Below are positions 17,651 through 53,176 of a stretch of 64,000 bases of DNA, piece after piece (within the stretch, counting starts at the first letter, position 1; each line of letters opens with the position of its first letter). Under the pieces are notes generated by a model. The model had not been told where the DNA came from, searched no databases, and was given only the letters and a program-made list of their open reading frames with translations. The stretch is from Methylococcaceae bacterium (GTDB taxonomy: Bacteria; Pseudomonadota; Gammaproteobacteria; Methylococcales; Methylococcaceae). The stretch is from contig CADDYU010000001.1 of assembly GCA_902810705.1 (NCBI GenBank), forward strand, positions 1 through 64,000, written 5' to 3'. A program made the position numbers and the translations under genes.

Positions 17651-18571
17651 TTAAATCAAATTAAGTCCCCGCGCCCGCTCGAAGGCTTCCCGGAAATCCA
17701 GAAACACCGGTTTCTCCGCCGTGAGGAGATAAGCGAGCAGCGCGTTTTGCAGTTTGTATTTCACGTCACCCACGGCGAGAGCGCCGATACCCACGGCACC
17801 GGGGGCATTGATGGCATGGATTAGGGGATCGCCGTTGTGGAGCCGTTTGACGCCTTCGATGCCCAAAGGCGGCACAGCGTTGACGTCGCCCGCCACTTTC
17901 AACTGCTTGGCATCGCCCAACACGTCCGAATTCAATACCTGCACGCCCGCCTTGGCGGTGCAGAACACGAGATCGGCGTGGGCGATCAGGCGGGCCTTGT
18001 CGGCGTCGGAGCTGGCATAGGTTCCGATGAGCTTCGAGCCGCAGCGCGCGTTGTATTCCTTGGCCTTTTCCAGAGCGGTATCGATGTTGAAGGGATCGAC
18101 GATGGTCACCTCGGCCCCGGCCAGGGAGGCGATGATGCCGGTGGCGAGGCCCACCGGGCCCGTGCCGCCGTAGACGACCGCATGGGCGCCCTTCAATTCT
18201 CCGCCGTGCTTGTCCTTCAGCTGCCTTTCCACGCAAGCCACCAAAGCGGCGGCGGTCGTGAAGGCGCCGCTCGGATCGGCCAGCACCGAGACCTCGAAGG
18301 GCGGCACCATGGCGTTCTTGGCGGCCTCCAGCATATTCAGCGCCAGTCCCAAATCGCGTCCGCCGATGAAGATGCCGGTACGCTTCACGCCGGCGGGGCC
18401 GCGGGAGAAGATGGTGTCCTGCACCAGCCCGTTCACCTGTTCGAGCTTGACGTTGTCGTAGGGAAAAATCGCCTCGAAGCCCGCGTCCACCGCCATGTTG
18501 ATGTCGAAGGGGCTGGTGTGTGGCATGGGATCGAACATGTGCAGCACGGTGCGTTTTTCCGTTTTTTCCAT
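17651..18571 (-). CDS. mtdB: Methylene-H4MPT dehydrogenase (MtdB-like), paralogue A with acidic cofactor loop
   Basis: 306 residues. It matches the MtdA/MtdB/MtdC family, which oxidises methylene-tetrahydromethanopterin to methenyl-H4MPT in formaldehyde oxidation. Family landmarks are SPFDINMAVDAGF, VQDTIFSRGP, TGIFIGGRDLGLA, the Rossmann motif YGGTGPVGLATG and AGDVNAVPPLGIEG. The second Rossmann strand ends in TIVDPFNID, with an Asp where NADP-binding members have Arg, suggesting NAD preference (inference). Start ATG 18571 with AGAGGT upstream. A paralogue follows 124 bp upstream on the same strand; roughly half of the residues match by eye. The symbol is by family and may apply better to the other copy. 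Confidence 0.85.
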   Translation of the reverse strand: MEKTEKRTVLHMFDPMPHTSPFDINMAVDAGFEAIFPYDNVKLEQVNGLVQDTIFSRGPAGVKRTGIFIGGRDLGLALNMLEAAKNAMVPPFEVSVLADPSGAFTTAAALVACVERQLKDKHGGELKGAHAVVYGGTGPVGLATGIIASLAGAEVTIVDPFNIDTALEKAKEYNARCGSKLIGTYASSDADKARLIAHADLVFCTAKAGVQVLNSDVLGDAKQLKVAGDVNAVPPLGIEGVKRLHNGDPLIHAINAPGAVGIGALAVGDVKYKLQNALLAYLLTAEKPVFLDFREAFERARGLNLI

Positions 18572-18695
18572 CGGTGGGACCTCTTTGGGGACGCAGAAAC
18601 TTTTAAAACGGTTGCCTGAACATCTTAAAGCATGGAGGGCCGAGGCACAGGCGCTGGCCCTGGAACTCGGCGGAAAATAGGAAAATAGGCGCGGA

Positions 18696-19601
18696 TCAAA
18701 GCTTCTGCGCGAATTCCCGAGCCAGCGCAAAAGCCTCGTCGAAACTCAAGTAAATCGGCTTGTCGGCCTGACGCATGCGGGCGAGGAGATCGCTCTGGGT
18801 CTTGTACTTGATGTTGCCGATGGCCAAGGCGCCGATGCCCACCGCGCCGCTGTTGGAGCCGGGAATCGGCGTGCCCTGATGATGAGCGTCCAGGCCCGCG
18901 ATTCCCGAGGGCGGCACTGCATTCACGTCCGCCGCAACTTTCAGTTGCGGAGCCGCTGCCACTAGCTCGGCGCTCAGCACCTGAACGCCGGCGGCGGCGG
19001 TCGCGAACACCACGTCGGCGGTCTTGATGAGTTCACCCTTGTTGGCGTCCGCGTCGCCCTCGATGCGGGTTTCATCGCCGCCGAACTCGGAATTGACCAG
19101 GCTGGCGATGTTCCGAGCCTTTTCCAACTGCCTGCCGACGATCTTGACCTGGGCACCGGCCTTGGCGGCCAGCACCGCCGCGATTTGCCCGACCGGACCG
19201 GTGCCGCCGAGGGCCAATACGGATTTGCCCTTGAGTTCGGTGTTGAACTTGGCTTGCAACTCGCGCTCGACCAGGGCGACCATGGCCGCGGCCGTGGTGA
19301 AGGCTCCGCTCGGATCAGCGAACACGGAGACCTGGAAAGGAGGCACCATGGATTGCTTCGCGGTTCTGAGCATGTCAACGGCCAGCTTTGCATCCCGGCC
19401 GCCGACGAAAATGCCGGTGCGTTTTAGTCCCTTTGGGCTCCGGGAGAAGATCGCATCCTGCACCAAGGCCCGAACCTCATTCGCCTCGACGTGGAGGTAC
19501 GGGATTGCCGAGGTCCAGCCGGCGTCCAAGGCCATGTTGACGTCGAACGGACTCAGATTCTTTTCGGGCGTGAACATGTGCAGGATATAGGGCTTTTCCA
19601 T
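18696..19601 (-). CDS. mtdB: Methylene-H4MPT dehydrogenase (MtdB-like), paralogue B with basic cofactor loop
   Basis: 301 residues, the same family and layout as its neighbour: SPFDVNMALDAGW, VQDAIFSRSPKGLKRTG, FVGGRDAKLAVDML, LGGTGPVGQIAAV and AADVNAVPPSGIAGLD. Here the second strand of the Rossmann fold ends in KIVGRQLEKARN, with an Arg as in known NADP-capable MtdB (compare CGRKLDKAQ of Methylobacterium). The strong ribosome binding site GAGGAG precedes the ATG at 19601. As first gene of the pair it is probably cotranscribed with paralogue A. The H4MPT pathway is characteristic of aerobic methylotrophs and supports the methanotroph assignment. Confidence 0.88.
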   Translation of the reverse strand: MEKPYILHMFTPEKNLSPFDVNMALDAGWTSAIPYLHVEANEVRALVQDAIFSRSPKGLKRTGIFVGGRDAKLAVDMLRTAKQSMVPPFQVSVFADPSGAFTTAAAMVALVERELQAKFNTELKGKSVLALGGTGPVGQIAAVLAAKAGAQVKIVGRQLEKARNIASLVNSEFGGDETRIEGDADANKGELIKTADVVFATAAAGVQVLSAELVAAAPQLKVAADVNAVPPSGIAGLDAHHQGTPIPGSNSGAVGIGALAIGNIKYKTQSDLLARMRQADKPIYLSFDEAFALAREFAQKL

Positions 19602-20005
19602 GGGATCTCCTCTCTGTCGTAGCGTATCTGATTGGTTTGCAAGAAATTGGATGCAGTCGCGGGAATTGAAACTCGGGGCGGATTGACCGCGCAGCATAGC
19701 ATAGTTCGGCCGTTCGGTGCGGCCGAACCAGTCTGCCAGCGGCTAGAATACGCCCCGCTTTTGCGCGAACTCCGAAGCGCGGTGTCGACGAGATGCCCCA
19801 GGAGCAAGGCTCGTTTCCAGGAGTCTGAAAGAACGGGGTTCCAGAATTCATCCACCTCGGAGGCGGGTCTTGGTGGACGGCATTCCCGTTCCTCTGCCGC
19901 CGAAAAATTTCCATGAACTGGTCGTCGATGCCGAAACCATCCGGGCTCCGAGCCCCTGCAGAAATGAGCGCAGTCAAACCGATGATGGAGCGCACAGGAG
20001 CGCTA
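19602..20005. other. Divergent promoter region between mtdB pair and rsbT-like gene
   Basis: About 400 bases separating minus-strand mtdB from the plus-strand anti-sigma kinase. The frame of the kinase is open from 19913, but the sequence before 20006 lacks family resemblance. It should contain both promoters; no clear -35/-10 pair was identified. Confidence 0.4.
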
Positions 20006-20407
20006 ATGACCGACGGAATACGTGTACCCATCGACTCGGAGGCACACATTCTGACCGCACGCCAGCAGGGGCGATCATTGGCTGCGGACCTGGGCTTTTG
20101 GTCCGTCGAGCAGACCTTCATCGCCATGGCCATCTCGGAAGTCGCGCTCAACATCCTCCAGTATGCCGGCAAGGGCGAGATCATTCTGAGCACGGCCCAA
20201 AAGGATGGAACCCGGGGCATCGTCATCGTGGCCAGCGACCAGGGACCGGGCATTCCCAACGTGGAGCTCGCCATGCAGGAGGGCTATTCAACGAGCGGGG
20301 GAGCGGGCCTGGGCCTGTCGGGCGCCAAACGGCTGATGGATGAATTCGACATTGTTTCCGAGGTCGGGAAGGGAACGACGGTGACGATGAAAAAATGGGT
20401 GCGATGA
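20006..20407 (+). CDS. RsbT-like anti-sigma-type serine/threonine kinase
   Basis: 133 residues, the usual length of RsbT. The GHKL ATPase motifs are present: N-box SEVALNILQYA, G1 box SDQGPGIPN and G2 box SGGAGLGLSGAKRLMDEF. In the stressosome/partner-switch pathway RsbT phosphorylates STAS proteins and, when released, activates the RsbU phosphatase. The ATG at 20006 has AGGAGC 7 bp upstream and gives the family length; a longer reading from 19913 is less likely. The RsbU-like phosphatase lies 169 bp downstream, which fits that pairing. No STAS partner or sigma factor gene is in the window. Confidence 0.85.
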   Translation: MTDGIRVPIDSEAHILTARQQGRSLAADLGFWSVEQTFIAMAISEVALNILQYAGKGEIILSTAQKDGTRGIVIVASDQGPGIPNVELAMQEGYSTSGGAGLGLSGAKRLMDEFDIVSEVGKGTTVTMKKWVR

Positions 20408-20576: not shown

Positions 20577-22985
20577 ATGAATGAAATTGTCGAGCGGGCG
20601 GAAGCCGATCTCGCGGTGGAATACGGGGCGGCCTTGCGGGACCATGGGGCCCGGGACGGGGAAGTCTCCCTGCAGCGGGCCCATGCACTGGGACACAAGG
20701 CCCTCGCGGAGAAAATAAGCCTCTCGGCCTTGGCTACGATCCATCACCAGGCCCTGACCGAGCTTTTAAGTCAAGCCACCACGCCCGAGCAATGCGTCGG
20801 CATCGAAACCCGGGCGCAGGCGTTCTTTCGGGAGGTTCTCGCGCCCTTCGAGGGTGTAATCCGCGGCTACGATGACGCCGAGGCCAAACTGCGCCTCCTC
20901 AACGAGAGCTTGGAGCGGACGAATAAGCGCCTGACCGAGATCCTTTTCGAGAAGGATCGGGTTATCGCGGAACTGAAGCGAAACGAAGAGGAGCTGCGCA
21001 GATCGCACGCCGAGGTGGCGCAGGCGAAGACCCTGGAACTCGCCGCCGCCGCCACGACCCTGCAGGCGGAAATCAGCGAGCGCAAGCTGACGGAAATCGC
21101 GTTGCGGGAAAGCGAATCGAGGTTCCGGGCCATTTTTGAAAGAACCGGCATCGGCATTGCCCTCTTGGACCGACTTGGAAAAGTCCGCGAGTGCAATCTC
21201 GCCCTGCAAGAGATGCTGGGCTATAGCAGCGCAGAGTTGCACAACCAAGTGATTTTCGAATTGAGCCATCCTGACGATGTCGAAATCAGCGCTCGATCTT
21301 TCAAAGGCTTGGTCGAGGGAAAATACAAGCATTACAACTTGGACAAACGATTCATCCGGAAAGATGGCTCATTGCTGTGGGTGCGCAAGATCGTTTCCGG
21401 AGTTTATGGATTCAGGGGCGAATTGCAGTTCGCCATCGATATGATCGAGGACATTACCGACAGCAAGTTCGCCGAGGAGGCGTTGCGGGAAAGTGAGGCC
21501 CGGTTTCGTCAGATCGTCGATATGACCTGCGAATGGATTTGGGAGCAGGATGCGGAAGGCCGCTATATCTATTCGAGCGCCGCGGTGAAGAACATTCTGG
21601 GATTTAGCGCCGAGGAGATTATCGGAAAACACTATTACGAGTTGTTTTATCCGGAAGACAAGGAACGCCTCACGGTCGTAATCCCGGAAACGGCCGCGCG
21701 CAAGGAAACCTTCCATCGCCTCATCAATCGCTATCGGCATAAGAACGGCCGCGAGGTCTTTACCGAATCCACCGGAACGCCGATCTCCGATCGCCAAGGC
21801 CGCTTGCTGAAGTGGCGCGGCGTGGATCACGACGTCACCGAGCGCAAGCGCTTCGAGGATGCCCTTCGGCTTCGGGACCGCGCCATCGAGGCGTCCAGCG
21901 TGGGCATCATCATCACCGATCCCCATCAGCCGGGCAATCCCATCATCTATGCCAATCCCGCGTTCATCCAGATGACCGGCTGCAGCCGGGACGAGGTGAT
22001 TGGGCACAATCCCCGCCTGTTGCAAGGCCCCGATACCGATGCCAAGGCGATCGCGGAGATTCGAACGGCCTTGCGCGAAGGCCGCGACTGTCATCTGACG
22101 CTCAAGAACTACCGCAAGGACGGGACCCCCTTTTGGAACGAGCTGTTCATCTCTCCGGTGAGGGACGATCAGGGCCGGGTGACCCATTTCATCGGCACGC
22201 AGACGGATGTTACGGCATTGCGACGCATCGAGGAGGAACGCCATGAGCTGGAAATCGCTCGGCAAATTCAGATGTCCCTCTTGCCGAGCGCGCCGTTGCG
22301 GGTGGACGGCGCTCTGGTGGCGGGCTATTGCCTGCCGGCGGCTCATGTCGGAGGCGATTATTTCGATTATTTCGGCGCGGACAACACCCTGGATATCGTG
22401 ATCGCCGATGTATCCGGCCACTCGGTAGGCGCGGCCATGCTCATGGCCGAAACCCGCAGTACCTTGAAGATGGAAACTCACTGGATGACGAAAGGAGAGC
22501 TCAAGCTTGACCACGGGGCGGAAAGAACCTTGTCGATCCTGAACGATCTCCTGTTCGAGGATTTGAGCCGGGCGGATTTTTTTATTTCCATGTTCTATGT
22601 GAAATATCATGGGGAAACCGGCGAGATGGTCTATGCCAACGCCGGGCACAATCGCCCATTGCTGCTGCGCCGAGATGAAAAGGAGTGCGTCGAGCTGGAT
22701 GCCGAGGGACTCATTCTGGGGATTCGAAAAGGCGTGATTTTCGAAGAGAAAAAACTCTCTCTGCGAAAAGGGGACATGCTGCTGCTTTATACGGATGGAG
22801 TGACCGAGGCTCGCAATAAACAGGGCGAGTTTTTCGGCGTGCCTCGCCTGCGCGATCTGCTCATCGTCCATGCCCAGCTCCCGCCTCAAGAGCTCATCGA
22901 AATGGTCGTCGACGAACTCAGGAGCTTTTGCCAAAGCCGATCCTTCGAGGACGATATTTCCCTCGTGGTGCTGAAAGTGCTTTAG
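20577..22985 (+). CDS. RsbU-like PP2C phosphatase with three PAS domains
   Basis: 802 residues. In order: an N-terminal RsbU-type helical domain (about 1-90), a coiled coil (about 95-175), PAS1 (180-300), PAS2 (300-420), a LOV-like PAS3 (430-545) and a SpoIIE/PP2C phosphatase (551-802). Metal-binding acidic residues are in GGDYFDYF, VIADVSGHSVGAAMLM, LLYTDGVTEA and FEDDISLVVL. PAS3 has the LOV layout (DEVIGHNPRLLQGPDTD), but Pro479 replaces the photoactive Cys of GRNCRFLQG, so blue-light adduct chemistry is not expected. It probably dephosphorylates an anti-anti-sigma STAS protein in response to PAS-sensed cues and is activated by the RsbT-like kinase upstream. pmoC follows 68 bp downstream. 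Confidence 0.9.
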   Translation: MNEIVERAEADLAVEYGAALRDHGARDGEVSLQRAHALGHKALAEKISLSALATIHHQALTELLSQATTPEQCVGIETRAQAFFREVLAPFEGVIRGYDDAEAKLRLLNESLERTNKRLTEILFEKDRVIAELKRNEEELRRSHAEVAQAKTLELAAAATTLQAEISERKLTEIALRESESRFRAIFERTGIGIALLDRLGKVRECNLALQEMLGYSSAELHNQVIFELSHPDDVEISARSFKGLVEGKYKHYNLDKRFIRKDGSLLWVRKIVSGVYGFRGELQFAIDMIEDITDSKFAEEALRESEARFRQIVDMTCEWIWEQDAEGRYIYSSAAVKNILGFSAEEIIGKHYYELFYPEDKERLTVVIPETAARKETFHRLINRYRHKNGREVFTESTGTPISDRQGRLLKWRGVDHDVTERKRFEDALRLRDRAIEASSVGIIITDPHQPGNPIIYANPAFIQMTGCSRDEVIGHNPRLLQGPDTDAKAIAEIRTALREGRDCHLTLKNYRKDGTPFWNELFISPVRDDQGRVTHFIGTQTDVTALRRIEEERHELEIARQIQMSLLPSAPLRVDGALVAGYCLPAAHVGGDYFDYFGADNTLDIVIADVSGHSVGAAMLMAETRSTLKMETHWMTKGELKLDHGAERTLSILNDLLFEDLSRADFFISMFYVKYHGETGEMVYANAGHNRPLLLRRDEKECVELDAEGLILGIRKGVIFEEKKLSLRKGDMLLLYTDGVTEARNKQGEFFGVPRLRDLLIVHAQLPPQELIEMVVDELRSFCQSRSFEDDISLVVLKVL

Positions 22986-23053
22986 AGATCGGGAGTGTTT
23001 TTCCAAGGCTCCAGTCCAATCGGAGTACTTTGGCCTTATCGAGGAGGTGACCT

Positions 23054-23923
23054 GTGTCTGCGTCGACTCGAACCGCGCTAGCCGGTGAAATCACGAAACA
23101 GCAGCCATTGCTCAATCGGAGGCATCTGGTTCTTGTAATCGTGGGCTATGCGGCTCTGTACCTATCGCTTCGCTGGTATGAGGGGAGATACGCCTGGTCG
23201 GCCGGGCTGGATGCCTTTGCGCCGGAATTCGAGACCTATTGGATGAGCCTCCTTTACGCGGAAATCGTGCTGGAAGTCATCACGGGCGCTCTCTTGTGGG
23301 GATGGTTGTGGCGAACTCGAGATCTCAATTTAGAGAGGTATTGGGGACGCTTCATGGATACGGAGACGGTACTGACCCGAAAGAGGGGCGCCGCCTTGTG
23401 GGAATTGCTATGGAAAACCCGGGATCAGAGCGTCGTGGTGTTGACCCCGCGCGAGGAGCTGCGCCGCAACATGACGCATCTGATCTGGCTGGCGGCCTAT
23501 GCCTGGGCTTTCTATTGGGGAGTGAGTTTCTTCACCGAGCAGGATGCGACCTGGCATCAAACGGTCGTGCGCGATACCGACTTCACGCCCAGCCACATCA
23601 TCGTGTTCTATCTATGCTATCCCGTTTACATCATTACGGGTTGGGGGGCTTTCCTGTATGCGAAGACGCGCCTGCCTTTTTTCGCCAAGGGTTTGTCCGT
23701 GCCCTATCTCTTGTCGGTGGTCGGCCCGTTCACGATTTTGCCGAATGTCAGCTATAACGAATGGGGCCACACGTTCTGGTTCATGGAAGAAATTTTCGTG
23801 GCGCCCCTGCACTATGGCTTCGTCGTCTTCGCGTGGTTTGCGTTGTCCATCGGAGGCGTGCTGCTGCAGGCGTTTGCCAGCATTTTATATTTGATCAAGA
23901 AAGAGCTCTGCGCCGAGTCGTAG
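23054..23923 (+). CDS. pmoC: Solitary PmoC, particulate methane monooxygenase subunit C, with internal duplication
   Basis: 289 residues; GTG start with strong GAGGAGGTGA. It matches PmoC through WYEGRYAWSAGLDAFAPEFE, LTPREELRRN and LPNVSYNEWGHTFWFMEE. All copper ligands are kept: Asp164, His168 and His181 (TEQDATWHQ...TPSH), and Asn235, His239 and His253 (NEWGH...PLHYGF). In standard PmoC a single LWKTRD leads directly to LTPREE. Here LWRTRD (85-90) and LWKTRD (119-124) are separated by 34 extra residues, a degenerate copy of residues 52-85. No pmoA or pmoB is nearby, so this is an orphan copy. It may be cotranscribed with the phosphatase gene upstream. Confidence 0.93.
   Translation: MSASTRTALAGEITKQQPLLNRRHLVLVIVGYAALYLSLRWYEGRYAWSAGLDAFAPEFETYWMSLLYAEIVLEVITGALLWGWLWRTRDLNLERYWGRFMDTETVLTRKRGAALWELLWKTRDQSVVVLTPREELRRNMTHLIWLAAYAWAFYWGVSFFTEQDATWHQTVVRDTDFTPSHIIVFYLCYPVYIITGWGAFLYAKTRLPFFAKGLSVPYLLSVVGPFTILPNVSYNEWGHTFWFMEEIFVAPLHYGFVVFAWFALSIGGVLLQAFASILYLIKKELCAES
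23207..23410 (+). repeat. Diverged 102-bp tandem duplication inside pmoC
   Basis: Two adjacent 102-bp units, 23207-23308 and 23309-23410, encode residues 52-85 and 86-119. Aligned without gaps they share E-x-Y-W, E-x-V-L, G-A-x-L-W-x-x-L and the following W-[RK]-T-R-D. Unit 1 is the normal transmembrane helix of PmoC; unit 2 has gained charged residues (TRKRG) and is no longer clearly hydrophobic. Confidence 0.75.
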
Positions 23924-39047: not shown

Positions 39048-39914
39048 ATGGAAAGATCTGACTTGAACGAAATGAAAATCTTGGCTAAAAAAATAAAATC
39101 AAAAGTAGGGAGCTCTATAGCCGCTACAGTGGAAGCCCTGAAATGGAATGTCTATAGGTTAAAGTGCCCGTTGACTCGATCTGCGTTAACGCTCATGCCG
39201 GCCGAACATCTCGATTACATTATGAATATTTCGCCACGGTATAAGTATATTTACGTAGACAATCCAAAAACCGGATGCTCATCATTGAAATCTGCCTTGG
39301 TGGAATTTGAGCTGCAAGGCGCCCAAACAGATTTAGATTGCTATGATTGGAAGGTTTTTCATGACCCCACGGCTTCGCCGCTGAAGCGCGTTACTCGCTT
39401 AAACACCTGGAAGCCTTTAAGCTTCCTGGTGGCAGACGGGTACCAATTCATTACTTTCGTAAGAAATCCATATACTCGGCTACTCTCCTGCTATAGAGAC
39501 AAAATTTTAAAAAATAGACCTCAGAAGCTTCAGGTGCTGCGCCTATTGAAGCACCCGACCAAAGATATTGAAAGGATGATTTCATTCGATGAATTTGTGA
39601 AAGCAGTAGTTAAACAGAGCGACTCAGAAATGAATCCACATTGGCGTGTTCAAACCACCCAAATACTATATCGTATTTTTAATTACTCTTTCATTGGGCG
39701 GTTTGAGTCTTATGAGAATGACTTCGTGAGATTGTTTGAAAGCATTTCAAATTCGGGAGCCGCGATACCCGCGCAGAGGCATTTGAACAGGACTCGAGAG
39801 GGCAAACGGGAAGGATGTCGGGATTATTATACCAAGGAGCTTCAAGACTTGGTTTATGACCGCTATAAAGAAGATTTCAGTAATTTTGGATATAAATACA
39901 AACTTCCGGAATAG
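39048..39914 (+). CDS. PAPS-dependent carbohydrate sulfotransferase (Sulfotransfer_2 type)
   Basis: 288 residues. The 5'-phosphosulfate loop is YVDNPKTGCSSLKSAL (near residues 70-85) and the 3'-phosphate-binding region is ITFVRNPYTRLLSCYRDK (near 140-157), both as in carbohydrate sulfotransferases. No membrane segment is evident, so it should act in the cytoplasm before export. Base composition is clearly more AT-rich than the neighbours, suggesting recent acquisition. With cysC at the head of the cluster it predicts a sulfated glycan. The ATG at 39048 is chosen; an ATG at 39072 is possible. Confidence 0.85.
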   Translation: MERSDLNEMKILAKKIKSKVGSSIAATVEALKWNVYRLKCPLTRSALTLMPAEHLDYIMNISPRYKYIYVDNPKTGCSSLKSALVEFELQGAQTDLDCYDWKVFHDPTASPLKRVTRLNTWKPLSFLVADGYQFITFVRNPYTRLLSCYRDKILKNRPQKLQVLRLLKHPTKDIERMISFDEFVKAVVKQSDSEMNPHWRVQTTQILYRIFNYSFIGRFESYENDFVRLFESISNSGAAIPAQRHLNRTREGKREGCRDYYTKELQDLVYDRYKEDFSNFGYKYKLPE

Positions 39915-51777: not shown

Positions 51778-52698
51778 TTAAGAAGCGAGAAGATCAGTAT
51801 ATTCGCTTTCGAGAAGCTGTTTGGCCGATTCTTCAGCCTCTTGGTAACGGCTTGGGTCGGATAGCAGAATATGCCCGCTTCTTTCCGGGACGCTCCAGGC
51901 ATGAGTACAATAATCGGCGATGTCGATGTGGCGAACCGTTTCTCCTTCCTGATGGATGCCGTAAAACCACTCGGTTCCAATATCCAGGTACATCGCTCCA
52001 AAAGGTGGAATTTTTCCAAAAGGTATGGTAAGTGGCCTGGCGCGCTTAATATTTATCATGCATGCCCATTCGTTAAGCCGGCATTCCGGCAGCGGCCATA
52101 TATTATTACGAGGGAAGCGTCGATAGAGTTTTGTTCTGGCTGGGTTGGCCGAGGATAACTCTGAATATTCCGTGGGGGATGGGCGATACGCAAGATACTT
52201 GTCGCTAGAGCATTTTTCTGCAAGATGCGCCGAACAATTCCAACACTGGCCAACTTGGCCGATGCCAGCATGACTTCCTATATTGTCTAGGAATGAGCCA
52301 ATAATGTCGTCTTTGTAAAGAACGTCATTATGAGTTATGAAGAGGAAGTCCTTATCCGTCATTTCCCACGCGAGTTGGTATCTAATGGAGTGCCGAAAGC
52401 TTTTTAAGCCAAATAGTGGTCGAAAATACTTGACTGGAAATACCCCAAGAAAGAATCTTGGGGTAAATAGGGTAATGTGAGGCTTTAGCAAAGTCATCAA
52501 GAAGGAAAAATCCGTGCCTGCCGGTTGTTTCCGCTCAGTGACGAAATAAATATTATCTATCCATTTTCCTGAGTGTTTTAGAAGCGACAGTATTGTCACC
52601 GCTGTCTGGTAGGGTTTTCCATACACTTGGACTGCAACATCGACCTTGCCGCAAGTGTGCATTTTGCCTTCCCGGTTCAAGAAAATGCCCGATAGCAA
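51778..52698 (-). CDS. Putative GT-A-type glycosyltransferase, lower-GC insert
   Basis: Up to 306 residues; ATG at 52662 (MHTCGKVDVAVQVYGKPYQT) is a likelier start than 52698 because the beta-strand resembling a glycosyltransferase nucleotide-binding strand begins there. A possible DxD-like acidic motif is FITHNDVLYKDD. Otherwise it is unrecognised: Cys-rich spots (GQCWNCSAHL) and no signal peptide or helix. Base composition and codon use are more AT-rich than pmbA and tldD on both sides, so it was probably acquired. It follows tldD and precedes pmbA on the same strand. Confidence 0.6.
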   Translation of the reverse strand: MLSGIFLNREGKMHTCGKVDVAVQVYGKPYQTAVTILSLLKHSGKWIDNIYFVTERKQPAGTDFSFLMTLLKPHITLFTPRFFLGVFPVKYFRPLFGLKSFRHSIRYQLAWEMTDKDFLFITHNDVLYKDDIIGSFLDNIGSHAGIGQVGQCWNCSAHLAEKCSSDKYLAYRPSPTEYSELSSANPARTKLYRRFPRNNIWPLPECRLNEWACMINIKRARPLTIPFGKIPPFGAMYLDIGTEWFYGIHQEGETVRHIDIADYCTHAWSVPERSGHILLSDPSRYQEAEESAKQLLESEYTDLLAS

Positions 52699-52798
52699 AT
52701 GCGAATAATTTGCTGTATCAAGTCCTTCTTGGAACTATGGCAGATTGCCGCTTTGAATGTGAATGAGCTTGTAGGATAGGTGAGCGATGGGAACAAGA

Positions 52799-53023
52799 TC
52801 AACCTGGATTGCTTGGTGCGCTATCCAGATAGCCTTGCTCCGATTTCAATAGTTCCCGCAAGACCTTCTTCCCCGGAATTAGGAAAGCCCCGGCGACACC
52901 GGGGTCGAGCGCTACGATATTCGAGCTTTGTCGATACTGCTGATAATATTTTCCACGCACTGCTTTCGAGAAATCAAAATCGTATTTCGGCCGCAGTTCA
53001 TCGGTATCAGTTTCGTAATTCAT
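52799..53023 (-). CDS. Antitoxin-like protein, partner of BrnT remnant
   Basis: 74 residues from the ATG at 53023. The segment RPKYDFDFSKAVRGKYYQQY followed by NIVALDPGVAGAF matches a common small antitoxin-type family encoded next to BrnT-like toxins (pattern YDFS-x-GVRGKY and VVLDPDVA-x-VF). The C-terminus after GAF is atypical and may be frameshifted: in an alternative frame PNSG follows as in relatives. The start codon lies inside the end of the toxin remnant. It is possibly also decayed. Confidence 0.6.
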   Translation of the reverse strand: MNYETDTDELRPKYDFDFSKAVRGKYYQQYRQSSNIVALDPGVAGAFLIPGKKVLRELLKSEQGYLDSAPSNPG

Positions 53024-53176
53024 ACGCTTTCCTCTTATGAGTAGTTGCGGGTCGGGCGCTGATAATACGGAAGATTCCGGCAAGCGGATCGCCGAAAATC
53101 GTGGCGGCTCGTCGAAGGATACTCCATGTTTTCGGCGATTGGTTTCGGCTTTGGCGGGGTCCCGAACGAATTTCAT
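53007..53176 (-). pseudogene. Truncated, frameshifted BrnT-like toxin remnant
   Basis: The first 22 codons read MKFVRDPAKAETNRRKHGVS-FDE, the BrnT start. Continuing in the next frame (one base lost near 53108) gives AATIFGDPLA, the next BrnT segment, followed directly by RIISARPATTHKRKAYE, the conserved BrnT C-terminus, and a stop at 53007. The central part of roughly 35-40 residues is missing. The toxin is therefore broken by one single-base deletion and one internal deletion, while its neighbour antitoxin frame stays open. Confidence 0.75.

Follow-up and report, generated by a model that had tools for sequence, protein, structure and literature searches.

A stand-alone PmoC with a tandemly duplicated transmembrane helix 2 is encoded in a conserved RsbT/RsbU gene cassette of Methylococcales

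In the analysed stretch of Methylococcaceae DNA (contig CADDYU010000001.1, positions 1 to 64,000; referred to as the window), we distinguished a stand-alone pmoC gene (23054..23923, + strand; GTG start, 289 aa) of a clade in whose history the DNA encoding transmembrane helix 2 (TM2), 34 residues or 102 bp long, underwent a single tandem duplication; the event predates the split between its members in Methylococcaceae and Methylothermaceae. Placed between TM2 and TM3, the second copy is no longer hydrophobic but charged, and is predicted to form a helical extension. We encountered PmoC proteins of this clade nowhere but in a conserved cassette, which has an RsbT kinase of its own and a phosphatase with the architecture RsbU_N-PAS-PP2C, and this clade-wide adjacency suggests that they act in regulation rather than as ordinary enzyme subunits. 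Methanotrophs often carry extra stand-alone pmoC genes; the copy described here, a member of the same clade as the Type 5 pmoC of Methylocaldum, combines a defined structural change, a defined pair of signalling partners and strict co-occurrence, which make its function testable.

The insert-bearing PmoC and the origin of its repeat

The whole protein matches the PmoC/AmoC family PF04896 (E=1.3e-113; 378.8 bits vs. a cut-off of 26.7) and far exceeds the cut-offs of TIGR03078 and NF041641. Its alignment to family models and to solved pMMO chains is split in two pieces, of which, in the solved chains, the first stops at about residue 93 and the second starts at residue 119. An AlphaFold2 model built from 64 sequences (mean pLDDT 73.1; 57.6 in a first model with a shallower alignment) matches pMMO C chains with a TM-score of about 0.8 by target length. 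Full-length relatives include L001-L006 and L032, of which L001, from Methylocaldum sp. 14B, is 79% identical. A strong Shine-Dalgarno sequence, AGGAGGTGA (23042..23050, +), lies 5' of the GTG start. The gene is flanked by rsbT, rsbU and a gene for a peptide-binding protein, with no pmoA or pmoB adjoining, so that it is not part of a canonical pmoCAB operon. Nor were pmoA or pmoB family matches found in the whole draft assembly, where further pmoC sequence is confined to two fragments (contigs C64 and C167), of which one lies at the end of its contig; gaps in the assembly probably account for the missing main pMMO operons. A PxmC identity was rejected, as there is no pxmABC operon and no gene for an A or B subunit nearby.

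The top internal repeat of the whole protein pairs residues 60-90 (copy 1, TM2; 23231..23323, +) with residues 94-124 (copy 2; 23333..23425, +) at an offset of 34, with 15/31 identical residues and a BLOSUM62 score of 74, whereas 200 shuffled proteins, searched at all offsets, reached a maximum of 57 (99% scored at most 51). The tandem duplication of 34 residues proposed in the earlier note is thus confirmed in its register. The frame given there (residues 52-85 and 86-119; 11/34 identities, p = 5e-5) has the correct offset, and the homologous core starts some 8 residues downstream of it. At the DNA level this frame retains only 53/102 identical bases, and the duplication must therefore be old. 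Compared with ordinary PmoC, the insert (approximately 23324-23425, +) is exactly 34 residues long and placed between ...WKTRD and LTPREE, so that, as had been noticed from the sequence, it is the second LWKTRD that runs into LTPREE. The equality of insert length and repeat period agrees with the requirement of a 102-bp tandem duplication.

A copy-2 profile of the 11 insert-bearing proteins, compared at every position with a profile built from 94 ordinary PmoCs, picked residues 60-90 (TM2) with a score of 48.4, vs. -6.3 for the next-best position (z = 9.0). TM2 is the sole good match within PmoC, which rules out an insert of unrelated sequence, the outcome that would have spoken against the duplication. 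Each of the 11 proteins on its own shows the repeat, exceeding 2000 permutations. Two Methylothermaceae proteins retain its first half (e.g., E-x-YW--LL--E-VLE) and most Methylococcaceae members its WKTRD end; this retention of different parts by different members argues against chance convergence.

In the predicted structure, the TM2 helix (residues 57-87, pLDDT about 87-93) is followed by a helix at 91-109, a short helix at 115-120 and TM3 from residue 132; along the insert the pLDDT drops from about 67 to 55, and confidence in its helices is moderate to low. Copy 2 has lost hydrophobicity (mean hydropathy in the window protein about 0.0, vs. 1.6 for copy 1) and carries 4-8 charges per 20 residues, which bears out the earlier expectation of a charged second unit, likely beside the membrane. 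Following PMC11931723 and the positive-inside rule, the insert is presumed to face the cytoplasm.

Insert length is exactly 34 in all aligned members, and the starting L-E-x-Y-W is invariant. The dN/dS of the insert, which had been suggested as a check, is 0.05-0.23 in the computable Methylococcaceae pairs (Nei-Gojobori), vs. 0.05-0.13 for the rest of PmoC, and 0.58-0.68 in two comparisons involving Methylothermaceae, all figures being rough because several pairs approach saturation at synonymous sites. The insert is under purifying selection within Methylococcaceae; it is also the fastest-evolving part of the protein, with its distal half poorly kept in two Methylothermaceae members. A conserved Ser/Thr of the insert as a kinase target was considered and rejected, as T-[ED]-T is kept in Methylococcaceae and not in Methylothermaceae.

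The six copper ligands of CuC and CuD (D164, H168, H181, N235, H239 and H253 in the window protein), already described as intact, are invariant in 105/105 PmoCs. The insert clade further retains 99 of the 128 columns conserved in ordinary PmoC, which leaves the idea of a block to normal assembly unsupported. Thirteen positions nearly fixed among ordinary PmoC are altered, and among the most striking is residue 184 (23603-23605), three residues past ligand H181, which is Val in 11/11 clade members and Glu in 91/94 ordinary PmoCs. We take this Glu to be Glu176 in M. capsulatus numbering; our literature searches found no role for it. Also among the most striking changes are those at 159, where F has replaced Y (11/11), and at 227, where T has replaced M (10/11). 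Leu or Val also replaces the Glu in three divergent PmoC-like sequences (L111-L113) outside the main PmoC group.

The RsbT/RsbU cassette and its distribution

Upstream of pmoC and on the same strand lie genes for (i) an RsbT-like switch kinase of 133 aa (20006..20407, +; HATPase_c and HATPase_c_2), whose start was placed at M32 of the open reading frame 19913-20407, with support from relatives whose alignments begin at residue 1 of the 133-aa protein, and (ii) an RsbU-like protein of 802 aa (20577..22985, +) with RsbU_N, three PAS domains and a SpoIIE/PP2C phosphatase domain (Pfam). The kinase has ATP-binding motifs, and the parts of an RsbT/RsbU partner switch are thus present. The rsbU gene adjoins the insert-bearing pmoC in 11/11 genomes, and rsbT belongs to the cassette in all 10 genomes with enough contig, the contig of the remaining one (G022) ending inside rsbU. 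In one genome (G308; L005, L185) pmoC is inverted and convergent, yet still adjacent. The flanking genes otherwise differ, no further neighbour being common to distant genera. RsbTs with at least 68% identity occur only in cassette genomes, the next best matches having 53-56%, and in the tree the RsbTs of the cassettes group as a single clade (support 95) that falls within the remaining RsbTs. All 10 share the motif LGFWSVE, which is absent from the other RsbTs compared and is possibly a partner-specific surface.

No RsbR or RsbS adjoins the cassette, which is therefore not an RsbRST stressosome module. At a threshold of 1e-5, no RsbS match was obtained in 10/11 cassette genomes, which vary in completeness and were searched with one query (the RsbS of G002); the sole exception, G001, has RsbS at a separate locus. 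Ordinary RsbTs of the order, in contrast, are preceded by RsbR-RsbS. RsbS is encoded upstream of the RsbTs with 53-56% identity (G002, G225, G081, G169 and G168) and 46-48% identity (G019, G064 and G065). In G002 (L150, 4484-8559) an operon encodes a protoglobin-RsbR, RsbS, RsbT, an RsbX-like PP2C and an RsbU_N-PAS-SpoIIE protein, and is a complete stressosome-type operon in a methanotroph. The window's genome contains one RsbV-RsbW pair, on another contig, a possible downstream target of the cassette.

The pmoC leader carries a conserved non-coding element, GGAGTGTTTTTC-N10-GTCCAA (22992..23019, +), aligned in five genomes and a candidate pmoC promoter or operator. It occurs in exactly one copy per genome in these five genomes of two genera (reversed control pattern, 0; expected count in the window, 0), and its distance to the pmoC start is similar across them, even where the rsbU gap is longer. 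Within it, GGAGTG-N16-GTCCAA presumably has ECF-type promoter spacing, albeit as a weak indication. The rsbU-pmoC gap gave no RNA fold (z 0.74) and no sigma-70 promoters or terminators above chance.

A search of other methanotrophs, as the earlier note had proposed, detected the insert with an insert-region profile in 11/311 Methylococcales genomes of four genera and two families, i.e., the window's genus, a Methylocaldum-like, a Methylotetracoccus-like and one Methylothermaceae genus. When 84,980 species genomes were scanned and the best 80 PmoC relatives retained, the insert was seen only in the top-scoring ones (L001-L006 and L032), and all of these belong to Methylococcales, L002 by way of a contig also placed there by the order search. 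Even after the insert columns had been taken out of the alignment, the 11 proteins form one clade in a quick tree (support 89), separate from every other PmoC sampled, whether ordinary or stand-alone. The insert was not seen among 43 viral-contig PmoC sequences, three of which are too short at this stretch to judge. The record of L002, which carries the cassette, is titled Methyloversatilis universalis; its contig is apparently the same as C14 of G057, which groups with Methylocaldum-like genomes, and the title is probably a misassignment.

Relation to known systems

Four stand-alone pmoC types have been named in Methylocaldum (PMC11931723; ISME J 2025). One of them, Type 5, which also appears in PMC10974252, is described in PMC11931723 as lying beside rsbU, keeping the CuD ligands and having an extension of about 40 residues in the largest cytoplasmic domain. 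The window pmoC likewise clusters with rsbU, has its 34-residue insert between TM2 and TM3, and shares a clade with the Methylocaldum protein L001. The Methylocaldum members of the clade are thus already known as Type 5 (PMC11931723), and the insert, taken in the earlier note for a novelty of this sequence, is old, clade-wide and a feature of a known PmoC clade. The main text on Type 5 covers Methylocaldum only, whereas the window comes from a different genus and the clade extends to Methylothermaceae. In the texts consulted (PMC11931723; PMC10974252) we found neither the origin from TM2 nor RsbT, the lack of RsbR/RsbS, the occurrence in Methylothermaceae or the change from Glu to Val.

Location outside the pmoCAB operon is shared with pmoC3 of Methylococcus capsulatus and other stand-alone pmoC genes (PMC517821; PMC4463540; PMC10950024). 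The Methylococcus-like copies (L139 and L140) differ in sequence, in the lack of the 34-aa insert and in their neighbours, and such an identity was rejected. AmoC3 and the other extra AmoC of ammonia oxidisers differ by their regulator, and we know of no insert of this kind in them. They are similar in being divergent extra C subunits tied to stress response, and PMC11561398, citing Berube and Stahl (2012), reports that extra amoC genes aid AMO stability under stress. Stressosome modules comprising RsbR, RsbS, RsbT and RsbX, together with RsbU, share with the cassette the RsbT kinase and an RsbU_N-bearing PP2C phosphatase (PMC9237108), whereas the cassette has no adjoining RsbR, RsbS or RsbX and contains PmoC instead. 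In Bacillus subtilis, RsbR-RsbS hold RsbT, and freed RsbT binds the N-terminal domain and linker of RsbU and activates the phosphatase, RsbU_N being the RsbT-binding domain (PMC12143880; PMC9237108).

Putative function of the cassette PmoC

Judged from sequence, the best explanation, to which we give a probability of about 0.4, is that PmoC is the partner of RsbT/RsbU in the membrane, as a sensor or tether, and makes the cytoplasmic contact through its insert; since RsbT and RsbU are kept without RsbR/RsbS, no simpler reading accounts for every part. The extension would face the cytoplasm and touch RsbT or RsbU, and PmoC, copper-binding but altered beside one ligand, would take over the control of RsbT from RsbR-RsbS. 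When the state of copper, oxygen, methane or pMMO changes, RsbT might then be freed, leading to activation of RsbU, which would dephosphorylate an RsbV-type protein. A docking surface, as the earlier note had put it, is accordingly plausible, and the neighbourhood names RsbT and RsbU as candidate partners. The fuller version, in which a methane monooxygenase subunit was recruited as the membrane receptor of a stress switch, replacing RsbR-RsbS, with the duplicated TM2 contacting RsbT/RsbU and the PmoC fold reading copper, oxygen, methane or pMMO state, is less likely than not; if true, an enzyme subunit central to methane oxidation would have turned into a stress sensor linking methane or copper state to a partner-switching cascade. 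The PAS domains of RsbU could also be the sensors instead of PmoC.

A role of PmoC as membrane partner is favoured by the 34-residue offset, the TM2 source, the single clade and its strict linkage to rsbU/rsbT, which persists while the flanks differ, as well as by the insert dN/dS of 0.05-0.23, the loss of the Glu at 184, the presence of RsbV and RsbW in the genome and the mostly missing RsbS. It is weakened by the fast evolution of the insert and its decayed distal half in two Methylothermaceae members, by the moderate to low confidence of the helix prediction, and by the reliance of the RsbS result on one query in drafts, with RsbS present in G001. The retained copper ligands and most conserved positions fit a catalytic role as well, and the element conserved in the leader of five genomes would suit a pmoC that is itself a regulated output. 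Both observations, like the strong Shine-Dalgarno sequence and the AmoC3 precedent (PMC11561398), favour a reading in which RsbT/RsbU would govern the production of a stress-induced replacement subunit, a reading nearly as likely as the preferred one. Such a PmoC would swap into pMMO, alongside PmoA/PmoB from the main operons, and keep the enzyme stable under stress, a role presumed for monocistronic AmoC copies in ammonia oxidisers, and the insert would tune assembly or membrane packing. Against this stand the replacement of the near-universal Glu beside a copper ligand in 11/11 members (with the further exchanges at 159 and 227), the missing RsbR/RsbS, which would leave the switch with no known input, and the long-kept three-gene unit, needless for mere transcriptional control.

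The cassette could also be one regulatory unit linked through the rest of PmoC, with the insert as a tolerated relic of duplication that has no specific role. The nearly free evolution of the insert in the two Methylothermaceae comparisons and the distal LWKTRD lost in two members point that way, but its constant length, invariant start and low dN/dS within Methylococcaceae make this improbable. An error of sequencing or assembly, or else a mutation confined to the window's genome, might be suspected in a draft of 375 contigs; with the same insert in 10 other genomes, single-contig and two-contig assemblies included, this explanation was rejected as having next to no likelihood.

Two other regions of the window may be mentioned. 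At 17651-19697 (- strand), two tandem divergent genes encode proteins with a methylene-tetrahydromethanopterin dehydrogenase N-terminal domain (Mpt_N). Genes at 39048-39911 and 51781-53176 have a third-position GC content of about 0.45-0.51, vs. 0.7-0.8 around many others, and were perhaps acquired; one of them encodes a sulfotransferase and lies near an O-antigen ligase gene.
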